DNA from: a virus
Reading direction: 5' to 3' (one strand)
DNA length: 25,407 bases
Virus record (IMG/VR): IMGVR_UViG_3300008261_000202
Span: 1 to 25,407 of that record
Shown: positions 8,103 through 16,505 of the stretch, one piece after another
How positions within the stretch are numbered: the first letter of the stretch is position 1
Layout: each line of letters begins with the position of its first letter
Notes under the pieces: generated by a model
What the model was told of the DNA's origin: nothing
Seen by the model: only the letters and a program-made list of their open reading frames with translations
The model's database searches: none
Translations under genes and position numbers: made by a program

Positions 8103-8190
8103 TAGATAATATGGGCATCAAAGGTCCAAACTTTGAATAAGTCCCACACCCTCCATGCATCTTAACAATGCACAAACAGGAGGGTCTCTT

Positions 8191-8263
8191 GGGCAAGTAG
8201 CATAATGGATAATGCATCAACCTTCTAAGTTGCCGACTGTAGGTTCGAGTCCTACCTTGCCTG
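8191..8263 (+). tRNA. tRNA-Arg(TCT)
   Basis: A full cloverleaf can be drawn: acceptor GGGCAAG (8191-8197) with CTTGCCT (8256-8262), D arm GCAT/ATGC, anticodon loop CTTCTAA with anticodon TCT (reads AGA), T arm GTAGG/CCTAC with loop TTCGAGT, discriminator G at 8263. CCA is not encoded. The top pair of the anticodon stem (positions 27-43) is a T/C mismatch and the first acceptor pair is G-T. tRNA-Arg(TCT) is common in T4-like cyanophages and would help read AGA codons. No integrase is present, so it is not likely an integration remnant. Confidence 0.95.
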
Positions 8264-13149: not shown

Positions 13150-13179
13150 GTATGAATACAAACGTGACCTGACCTATTG

Positions 13180-14415
13180 ATGCTGACTCTTCTTCCTTAT
13201 CAACAACGTGCTCTTGATGCTGTGCAGAAAGCAATCAGGGGTTCTGTCTACATTCCCACTGGTGGTGGGAAGACTGTTGTGATGATGGAAGATGCCCGTC
13301 AACGTGTTCTGAACGCAACAGAACCGATGACATTTGTTGTTGTTGCACCTAGAATCCTGCTTGCAAATCAACTCTGTTCAGAGTTCGAAGAGTATCTCAA
13401 AGAGCAAAACATTTCTTTTATGCATGTTCACAGTGGTGAAACTCATCATCAATCCTCTACACGTCCAGCAGTCATTGCAGAGTATAATGACACAGCAATC
13501 GGAAGTGGCAAGCATCAATTTATCTTCACCACTTACAATTCGATTGGTCGGGTGAATGAAGCAGACATCAACATTGATGTTGTATATTTCGATGAGGCAC
13601 ACCACTGTGTGAAACCATCTAACTTTGTGGGTATTGCTCACACTTCAGCAGTTGCAGATAATGCCTATTTCTTCACTGCAACTCCGAAGTTCAATAACAG
13701 CAAGGAGTCGATGAACAATACTGATGTGTACGGTAATAATATCATCAGTATTCCTGCACAAGAACTCATCGAAGCAGGTAGTATTATTCCTCCTCGGGTT
13801 GTTCCTTATGAAGCAGAAACCATCCGCACCAAAGAAAATGCACCTTTTGTAGATGCAGAAAACATTGTAGGTATTCTCTCTCAGATTTCTGATTGTGATG
13901 CACCTAAAGTTCTTGTTGCTGCTCCCAGCACCAAAGTAATTTGGGCAATGTTCACTGAGAGTGATTTGCTGCAACAACTCAATGACATGGGTTATACGAT
14001 TATGCACATCACTTCTAAGCATGGTGCTTACATCGACAAACAGAAAGTGTCTCGTGAAGTATTCTTCGAGAAGATGAATGAGTTTGGTGCTGACCCAGAC
14101 AAGAAGTTCATTGTGTTTCACTACAGCATCCTGTCCGAAGGTATGAATGTGCATGGTCTGACTCATTGCATTATGCTTCGCAATCTTCCTCTGATTGAGA
14201 TGGCACAAACTGTTGGTCGTGTGATTCGTATGCACCGTGATGACCGACAAGCAATCGCAGAAGGTAAGATGAATCCTGGTGAGTTTGCTTTCTATAAGAA
14301 ACCCTTTGGCACCATCACTATTCCTGTGAACAACAACTATGGTGATAAGATTGCCCGTCAACTTCAGACTGTTGTTGACACTATCTTTGTCAAGGGTGAA
14401 GTGCTTGCTGCCTAA
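13180..14415 (+). CDS. superfamily 2 DEAH helicase, 411 aa
   Basis: ATP-driven DNA or RNA unwinding/translocation enzyme. All core motifs are visible: Q-rich N-terminus LLPYQQRALDAV, Walker A PTGGGKT (26-32), Ia VVVAPRILLANQL, Walker B/II DEAH (138-141), III TATPK (166-170), IV-V region VFHYSILSEGMNVHG (312-326) and VI QTVGRVIRM (343-351). There is no accessory domain, so it is compact. This resembles ComF/UvsW/type III restriction-subunit helicases; it is too short for a restriction subunit and lacks a nuclease domain. Partner could be the nuclease/methylase pair at 15022-16439, but another promoter lies between. ATG at 13180 is chosen over a TTG 3 bases before. Confidence 0.92.
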   Translation: MLTLLPYQQRALDAVQKAIRGSVYIPTGGGKTVVMMEDARQRVLNATEPMTFVVVAPRILLANQLCSEFEEYLKEQNISFMHVHSGETHHQSSTRPAVIAEYNDTAIGSGKHQFIFTTYNSIGRVNEADINIDVVYFDEAHHCVKPSNFVGIAHTSAVADNAYFFTATPKFNNSKESMNNTDVYGNNIISIPAQELIEAGSIIPPRVVPYEAETIRTKENAPFVDAENIVGILSQISDCDAPKVLVAAPSTKVIWAMFTESDLLQQLNDMGYTIMHITSKHGAYIDKQKVSREVFFEKMNEFGADPDKKFIVFHYSILSEGMNVHGLTHCIMLRNLPLIEMAQTVGRVIRMHRDDRQAIAEGKMNPGEFAFYKKPFGTITIPVNNNYGDKIARQLQTVVDTIFVKGEVLAA

Positions 14416-14927: not shown

Positions 14928-14941
14928 GTCTTGTGGGTCTA

Positions 14942-15000
14942 TGTGCCAGTTGAACTGGTGGCACAAACCCCTTGACTTCTGCCCCTGCATCGGTTACAGT
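14942..15000 (+). promoter_or_regulatory. hairpin plus sigma-70 promoter for the nuclease/methylase operon
   Basis: TGTGCCA (14942-14948) pairs with TGGCACA (14959-14965); an alternative inner CCAGTT/AACTGG stem (14946-14951/14953-14958) is mutually exclusive. TTGACT (14972-14977), a 17-base spacer and TACAGT (14995-15000) form one of the better promoters in the window. Confidence 0.65.
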
Positions 15001-15021: not shown

Positions 15022-15615
15022 ATGCCCAAACTGTCCACCAATCAAGTTGCTGCCAAACTGAAAGTTACTGACTTCACAGCATTTGATAAACCTGGTAAGA
15101 ATAAGGGTGCCCGTGGTCAACTGATTGAAAATGCTCTGGGTATTCTTAATAGTTCTGCCCTGACTGATTTGATTGATGGTGAACTCAAAACCTTTACTCA
15201 AGGTGAGAGCATTGCTGTAACTCAAATCAAGCATTGTCTTGAAGAGATTATTGATGAACAAGTGGGTTTTTATGATAGCAAGGTAGGACAAAAACTTGCT
15301 CAAACTATCTACGTTGGTTTCACACGTTCTAATGATTACATCGGAACTGCTGTTGTGAACTTTGATAGTTGCCCCACTCACTTTGTTCATCTTGCAGAAG
15401 ATTATGAATACATCTGCAATGAGATTCGTAATCGTTACATGAACAACAAAGAACTTTCTACGATTACTGGTCCTAACAAACTTCTCCAGATTCGCACAAA
15501 AGCATCTAAAACTAAGCAAGGTTATTATGTGCCTCTGTGCTATAATGGTAAGAAACTGAAAGATAAGAACATGGCATTTTATCTTTGCACTCAGTTTGGT
15601 AAAACTATTGTTTGA
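15022..15615 (+). CDS. MutH/Sau3AI-like endonuclease, 197 aa
   Basis: MutH cuts unmethylated or hemimethylated GATC; Sau3AI is the restriction relative. The catalytic frame is visible: KGARGQLIE with E36 (matching MutH E56), then D49 and the signature DGELKTF with E54 and K56 (matching D70, E77, K79 with a slightly shorter spacing). Further on LQIRTKAS (155-162) and MAFYLCTQF (184-192) match MutH's C-terminal LQIRPKA and FYL..xF blocks. Length fits single-domain MutH (about 229 aa). It precedes a Dam-type methylase by 5 bases. ATG at 15022 is used; an earlier in-frame ATG at 14941 would translate the promoter hairpin. Confidence 0.88.
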   Translation: MPKLSTNQVAAKLKVTDFTAFDKPGKNKGARGQLIENALGILNSSALTDLIDGELKTFTQGESIAVTQIKHCLEEIIDEQVGFYDSKVGQKLAQTIYVGFTRSNDYIGTAVVNFDSCPTHFVHLAEDYEYICNEIRNRYMNNKELSTITGPNKLLQIRTKASKTKQGYYVPLCYNGKKLKDKNMAFYLCTQFGKTIV

Positions 15616-15620
15616 TTTTA

Positions 15621-16439
15621 ATGAATAAACCTTTTCTAAAGTGGGCAGGTGGTAAGTTTAGACTCCTGCCCCAACTTATTCCTATTATTGGTTATCCAAC
15701 TCAATTCATTGAACCGTTTAGTGGTGCAGCAAGTGTATCACTGAACATTGTCGATTGCCCAGTCATTGTTGTGAATGATGCAAACAATGATTTGATTCAA
15801 ACTTATCAGTATTTGATTTCAGAAGGTAATGACTTCATTGATTATTGTGAGGAATACTTTGTTGATGGAAATGATGAAGTGGTTTTCTATCGAAATCGAG
15901 AGTTGTTTAATGAAACAGTAGATAAAAGAGAGAAATCTGCACTGTTTGTTTATTTGAACAAACATAGTTTCAATGGATTGACTCGATACAATAAACAAGG
16001 AAAGTATAACGTTCCTTTTGGGAAGTATAAGAGTGTAACTTTCCCAAGAAATGAGATGATTAACTTCACAAACACAATGAGAGAGAAGAATCAAGTCTAC
16101 ATGCACTCTCTTGATTTTTGTGAGATGAAGTTGTATCAAAACATCAATGAGAACACTGTTGTTTATTTTGACCCACCATACATTCCTTTGAGTGAAACAT
16201 CTAGTTTTACTGATTATCACACTGAAGGATTTACTGATGCTGACCAAATTCGATTAGTTGAACTTGCAAAGTATCTCAAAAGTCAGGGTGCAAAAGTAAT
16301 CATCAGCAATCATGATGTTGAGAGAGCAAGGGAGTTGTATTGTGATGCAAGAAAGATTATCGAAGTTGATGTAACTCGAAGTGTTGGTGCTAGTTCTGAA
16401 TCAAGAGGAAAAGTTAAAGAACTGATTGCCATTTATTGA
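15621..16439 (+). CDS. dam: Dam-type DNA adenine methyltransferase (D12 class), 272 aa
   Basis: Transfers a methyl group from S-adenosylmethionine to the N6 of adenine, in this family usually in GATC. Motifs: FLKWAGGK (5-12), SAM-binding EPFSGAASV (31-39), catalytic DPPY (184-187), ISNHD (228-232), and the Dam-like C-terminus TRSVGASSESRGKVKEL (252-268). Length is normal (E. coli Dam 278). ATG at 15621 is 5 bases after the nuclease stop; one mRNA is expected. It would protect GATC sites from the adjacent MutH-like enzyme. Specificity is inferred from family and context. Confidence 0.93.
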   Translation: MNKPFLKWAGGKFRLLPQLIPIIGYPTQFIEPFSGAASVSLNIVDCPVIVVNDANNDLIQTYQYLISEGNDFIDYCEEYFVDGNDEVVFYRNRELFNETVDKREKSALFVYLNKHSFNGLTRYNKQGKYNVPFGKYKSVTFPRNEMINFTNTMREKNQVYMHSLDFCEMKLYQNINENTVVYFDPPYIPLSETSSFTDYHTEGFTDADQIRLVELAKYLKSQGAKVIISNHDVERARELYCDARKIIEVDVTRSVGASSESRGKVKELIAIY

Positions 16440-16446
16440 TGCTGGT

Positions 16447-16505
16447 GTGCCACTTGTAGGAGTGGCACTGATGCGGTTGCGGTGCATGGGATTCTGGGGT
16501 ATTAT
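16447..16505 (+). promoter_or_regulatory. hairpin-promoter cassette
   Basis: GTGCCACT (16447-16454) pairs perfectly with AGTGGCAC (16461-16468) around TGTAGG, directly after the methylase gene. TTGCGG (16477-16482), 17 bases, then TATTAT (16500-16505) give a fair sigma-70 promoter. Drives the small-gene run from 16529. Confidence 0.65.

Follow-up and report, generated by a model that had tools for sequence, protein, structure and literature searches.

A predicted MutH-fold nuclease gene beside a Dam methylase gene in T4-like cyanophages: a putative GATC-specific restriction-modification-like cassette

Analysis was performed on a stretch of 25,407 bases from the IMG/VR virus record IMGVR_UViG_3300008261_000202 (the window). 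The window is a T4-like cyanophage region with many short genes, and pieces of it match phage S-PM2 at approximately 84% identity. Positions 8190 to 8263 match a tRNA-Arg gene of Synechococcus phage S-CREM1 at 96% identity. Two intact open reading frames with ATG starts, separated by 5 bases from the stop codon of the first to the start codon of the second, encode a putative nuclease and a putative adenine methyltransferase (Table 1). Methylase and nuclease are thus encoded together at this locus, as in Type II restriction-modification (RM) systems. A preliminary description of the locus had placed both genes under one promoter. A sigma70-like match does precede the pair, but it is weak, as scanning revealed 11 such sites compared with 6.7 (standard deviation, 2.5) in shuffled sequence. 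The pair is bordered by two predicted RNA hairpins. Folding of positions 14935 to 14975 yielded -17.3 kcal/mol (z, -3.0), and folding of positions 16436 to 16480 yielded -18.0 kcal/mol (z, -3.3); a terminator scan made no call at the upstream hairpin. The ResIII-type helicase gene adjoining the pair was considered as a third part of the cassette and rejected, since it is near universal in cyanophages: it was found in 418 phage records, cassette bearing and cassette free. Because cassette-free phages keep the helicase, its flank resembles a preferred landing site.

Table 1. Features at the nuclease-Dam locus of the window
Feature	Position	Strand	Basis
Core cyanophage helicase, outside the cassette, marking the landing site	13177..14415	+	Present with and without cassette
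RNA hairpin just 5' of the unit, candidate boundary or terminator, no T-run	14942..14965	+	Predicted fold
Sigma70-like promoter match, TTGACT-17-TACAGT	14972..15000	+	9/12 consensus bases; weak alone
Predicted MutH-fold nuclease, 197 aa, phrog_15364	15022..15615	+	NCBIfam MutH, AlphaFold and Foldseek, active-site alignment
Predicted Dam-family N6-adenine DNA methyltransferase, 272 aa	15621..16439	+	PF02086, TIGR00571, EcoDam match
RNA hairpin just 3' of Dam, candidate boundary or terminator	16447..16468	+	Predicted fold

The deduced nuclease was matched by the NCBIfam MutH model NF003458 over residues 22 to 196 (E value, 2.9e-6), and 31 of 31 homologues matched the MutH model as well (best E value, 2.8e-10). 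The score of 26.5 bits lies below the curated cut-off of 243 for the MutH mismatch repair equivalog; the protein is MutH-like rather than a repair equivalog. PHROGs assigned it to the unnamed family phrog_15364 (E value, 1e-76), Pfam gave no family for it, and a sequence-profile search of the Protein Data Bank (PDB) with it found no MutH. Alignment with E. coli MutH by hhalign gave a probability of 94%. An AlphaFold model generated from 31 sequences (pLDDT, 89.7; pTM, 0.85) was compared with the PDB by Foldseek. All five significant matches (E value, ≤0.001) were E. coli MutH (E values, 1.6e-6 to 2.4e-4; probability, 1.00; TM scores, 0.56 to 0.64).

Structural alignment placed residues E36, D49, E54, and K56 of the phage protein on E56, D70, E77, and K79 of MutH, which form a D-Xn-E-X-K motif with an upstream Glu, and R158, K160, and Y187 on R184, K186, and Y212. 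D49, E54, K56, R158, K160, and Y187 are invariant across the 31 homologues, and no fewer than 90% of them retain E36. The MutH catalytic frame E36/D49/E54/K56 named in the preliminary description thus aligns with that of MutH. From sequence and model, the first gene is predicted to encode a MutH-fold nuclease. Sau3AI, with which the preliminary description had also compared it, comprises two MutH-like domains in approximately 490 aa. The phage protein has one domain in 197 aa, and no Sau3AI chain occurred among the Foldseek matches listed for its model. The resemblance to MutH (a single domain with the methyl-sensing Tyr) thus held, and that to Sau3AI did not. Sau3AI is, like the phage nuclease, related to MutH, and it cuts GATC (PMC3848065). 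It is, however, blocked by cytosine methylation (PMC4390886), whereas the single-domain phage nuclease is paired with an adenine methylase.

The fold, the E/D/E/K active site, and the equivalents of R184, K186, and Tyr212 are common to E. coli MutH and the phage nuclease, although the latter is only 23 to 27% identical and is shorter by approximately 20 N-terminal and 8 C-terminal residues. Tyr212 sets the response of MutH to methylation, and MutL binds the C-terminal helix of MutH (PMC3848065). The shortened C terminus would therefore fit a nuclease that acts without MutL. A scan of bacterial genomes revealed a single relative, 55% identical (NZVE01000007.1; L166:1236-1820). The contig that carries it was binned as Rhodobacteraceae but probably represents phage sequence placed in the bacterial bin.

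The second gene encodes an adenine methylase which, judged by its sequence, is a full-length member of the Dam family, as the preliminary description had proposed in naming an adenine methylase 5 bases after the nuclease. It matched PF02086 (E value, 6e-55) and TIGR00571 (E value, 1.5e-70; 238 bits against a cut-off of 114.85) and aligned over its full length with residues 4 to 268 of EcoDam (E value, 9e-55) and with DpnM (E value, 3e-44). The GATC contacts of EcoDam, which we take to be K9, Y119, N120, L122, R124, P134, and Y138, are kept in the alignment except for Y119, which is replaced by Phe. The enzyme is predicted to methylate GATC, as these residues are largely kept and GATC is the depleted motif (see below). 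In the S-RIM2 record HQ317292, a distant D12-type methylase (25% identity) is encoded just before the core helicase at positions 41518 to 42174; this gene occupies the slot held by the cassette Dam in other phages.

Homologues of the nuclease were found in 25 phage records, every one a Synechococcus phage, and in at least 148 IMG/VR stretches. Dam is present in all 25 phage records. At an E value of ≤1e-60, Dam was found in 65 records (64 cyanophages and one uncultured record), compared with 484 records with a related gp23. The probability that all 25 MutH records would carry Dam by chance is approximately 3e-24 at the level of records, many of which are near-duplicates. Counted by lineage, it is approximately 0.003 for the three isolate MutH lineages and approximately 1e-6 when four genera with the second nuclease described below are added.

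The arrangement of the two genes varies. The order MutH-Dam was observed in the window and at loci L002, L003, and L019, and the order Dam-MutH was observed in S-RIM8, S-IOM18, and WH25-B. In S-8S29 (L024:2110-3588), the Dam stop codon is gone and both genes form an in-frame Dam-MutH fusion, a single open reading frame of 492 aa; its annotation reads DNA adenine methylase only. The genes are 32 kb apart in S-CAM7, where only Dam sits at the helicase site. Most metagenomic MutH loci likewise have no Dam within 4 kb, the genes lying kilobases apart. These separations are a point against the cassette interpretation. Full-length Dam was present on 6 of 6 metagenomic MutH contigs of at least 200 kb, and the several MutH fragments without it (e.g., G012, G016, G027, and G028) are all incomplete contigs.

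In S-RIM50, ACG-2014g, S-RIM12, and ACG-2014b (L171 to L174), the gene directly after Dam encodes a 144-aa protein of family phrog_6124. This protein matched PF20472 (PDDEXK_11) above the cut-off (E value, 9e-12) and is unrelated to the MutH-fold nuclease. Its structural model is of moderate confidence (pLDDT, 77), and the nearest fold is that of the restriction enzyme BstEII (E value, 3e-3). The PDDEXK_11 nuclease was found in 39 phage records just after Dam. The 64 cyanophage Dam records thus consist of 25 with MutH and 39 with PDDEXK_11, with neither overlap nor orphans, a rule that covers Dam matches at an E value of ≤1e-60 and not more distant methylases. In a Dam tree, MutH and PDDEXK partners are interleaved: the sister of S-RIM8 (MutH) is S-RIM50 (PDDEXK), whereas WH25-B and S-IOM18 (MutH) cluster with S-RIM12 and ACG-2014 (PDDEXK). 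Between L019 and the window, both flanks show 85 to 88% DNA identity and Dam is 95% identical, but MutH is only 54% identical. The tree and this comparison indicate that the nuclease was swapped while Dam stayed. In the cyanophages found, Dam was in every case accompanied by one or the other of two interchangeable nucleases. The statement of the preliminary description that a lone Dam is common in phages therefore fails for this Dam family in cyanophages, in which all members found have a nuclease partner.

The window contains 9 GATC sites, compared with 88 expected from composition or 125 from a Markov model. In counts from 20-kb samples of 26 cassette-bearing and 15 cassette-free cyanophages, none of the 136 tetramers was as strongly depleted in the cassette-bearing group as GATC, with a ratio of 0.50 (p, 3.9e-6 by the Mann-Whitney test, uncorrected and from related genomes of differing habitats). 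The PDDEXK group alone gave a ratio of 0.51 (p, 3.6e-3). Among phages of host WH7803, the observed/expected ratio of GATC is 0.98 in S-PM2, which has no cassette, and 0.25 and 0.33 in the cassette-bearing WH25-B and S-IOM18. Ratios among cassette phages spread from 0.07 to 0.92. In Brizovirus, cassette-bearing S-RIM12 (0.68) does not differ from cassette-free Syn33 (0.69), which counts against the cassette interpretation. In our interpretation, the depletion reflects a cost of the cassette, as GATC sites left unmethylated for a time would be cut by the phage's own nuclease; the alternative is restriction by the host. A lone Dam was also considered as the cause of GATC depletion, and this was dropped because the four phages taken as Dam only carry PDDEXK_11 in the MutH slot.

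Partnerless Dam genes are common in phages other than cyanophages, and host restriction could itself produce GATC depletion. It could thus be argued that only Dam matters, as a shield from host GATC restriction, and that the nucleases have functions of their own and accompany it fortuitously. We regard this as very improbable, given that exactly one of the two nucleases accompanies Dam in 64 of 64 cyanophage records across several genera and gene orders, and that depletion among the WH7803 phages varies by cassette and not by host. In addition, GATC restriction genes have been observed in cyanobacterial groups A and B alone and not in picocyanobacteria (PMC4390886). mutH is missing from all cyanobacteria examined (PMC5101192). 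These surveys, the two papers on which our statements about hosts rest, lead us to expect that GATC is unmethylated in the usual hosts and that the phage faces no GATC restriction there.

The nuclease might instead nick hemimethylated GATC during mismatch repair or recombination of phage DNA; Dam would then supply the strand signal, and host MutS and MutL the recognition. E. coli MutH works exactly so with Dam (PMC3848065), and cyanobacteria have MutS and MutL (PMC5101192), but they have no MutH for this MutL to partner. No MutS or MutL domain was detected in 7 MutH phage records, with positive controls matching, although host proteins may still supply them. The loss of the last residues from the C-terminal part contacted by MutL, the selection against GATC (the repair signal itself), and the replacement of the partner by an unrelated PDDEXK_11 nuclease make this role improbable as well.

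The strict co-occurrence, the exchange of nucleases at one slot, the fusion, the avoidance of GATC, and the lack of MutS and MutL fit a methylase-nuclease unit, so the compact unit proposed in the preliminary description is partly supported. Taken together, the sequence and model data suggest that the pair is probably a phage-borne, GATC-specific, RM-like cassette that would cut DNA without the phage's mark. We infer the cleavage, its block by methylation, the independence from MutL, and the target as follows. Dam would put N6-methyladenine on the GATC sites of the phage's own DNA, and the MutH-fold nuclease, without MutS and MutL, would nick or cut GATC sites lacking this mark. The conserved Y187 and the GATC depletion bear on the prediction that the nuclease cuts the same site and is blocked by methylation. 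MutL-independent cutting is an assumption, since E. coli MutH by itself works slowly and favours hemimethylated sites, and MutS and MutL stimulate it (PMC3848065). Unmethylated host chromosome would be cut up for takeover and nucleotides.

The host chromosome appears the likeliest target, with a chance a little short of even, because cyanomyoviruses lack denA and denB of T4 and modified bases; they also lack ndd, and an undescribed route of host DNA degradation has been proposed for them (PMC2984593). A self-marking GATC cassette fits the gap left by these functions. The second likeliest target is the DNA of superinfecting or rival phages without Gm6ATC, which the same chemistry would attack in place of the host chromosome. 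This Dam is missing from most cyanomyovirus records, and cassette-free phages have near-normal GATC counts and hence would be cuttable; unmethylated host DNA, however, is there in every infection, and the host DNA nucleases of T4 are missing in cyanomyoviruses (PMC2984593), so that rival DNA seems a rather unlikely target. Both targets would be attacked in one and the same way, and sequence alone cannot tell them apart. More tentatively, and with somewhat less confidence than in the host as target, we propose both that, in T4-like cyanophages, this Dam is always half of a GATC RM cassette with two swappable nucleases and that this cassette provides the missing mechanism for recognising and degrading unmethylated picocyanobacterial host DNA, replacing the modified base and denA/denB of T4. 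If true, this would explain, for cassette carriers, how a T4-like cyanophage can dismantle host DNA and leave its own unharmed, and would give a role to two families without assigned function, phrog_15364 and phrog_6124.

Comparison with known systems revealed partial likenesses. Viruses of Chlorella encode nucleases and methylases, such as CviJI and CviAII, that are believed to break down the DNA of the host and leave that of the virus intact. Those enzymes, however, come from a eukaryotic virus, and their nucleases are unrelated, with no close structural match (CviJI E value, 0.47). DpnII/MboI-type RM systems likewise place a Dam-family GATC adenine methylase beside a nuclease, which in the phage would putatively act on unmethylated GATC, but the phage nuclease has a MutH fold, is borne by a lytic phage, and is replaced by PDDEXK_11 in related phages. 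Unlike E. coli MutH, the phage nuclease is paired with a Dam gene in a phage without MutS and MutL and is swappable for another nuclease. Kat-MutH of a katablepharid mitochondrion is likewise one MutH-like nuclease encoded next to a methylase of GATC type, both within a mobile element, but its partner is a cytosine methylase; no activity was detected, although a dam+ strain had served for the toxicity test (PMC8099122). To the extent of the literature searched, the coverage of which is incomplete, no description of this Dam-MutH pair was found.

Other words are depleted as well. In the tetramer samples, CCGG is nearly missing from many cyanophages with or without a cassette, S-SM2 is without CTAG, and ACG-2014d is without TCGA. 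The CCGG count of the window is 0. The window also has 0 RGCY sites (AGCT, AGCC, GGCT, and GGCC), compared with 86 (Markov) or 229 (composition) expected, and 3 occurrences, compared with 121 expected, of GC preceded by A, C, or G and followed by C, G, or T. This RGCY-type depletion is weaker in the relatives G001 (62 of 236) and G014 (39 of 147).
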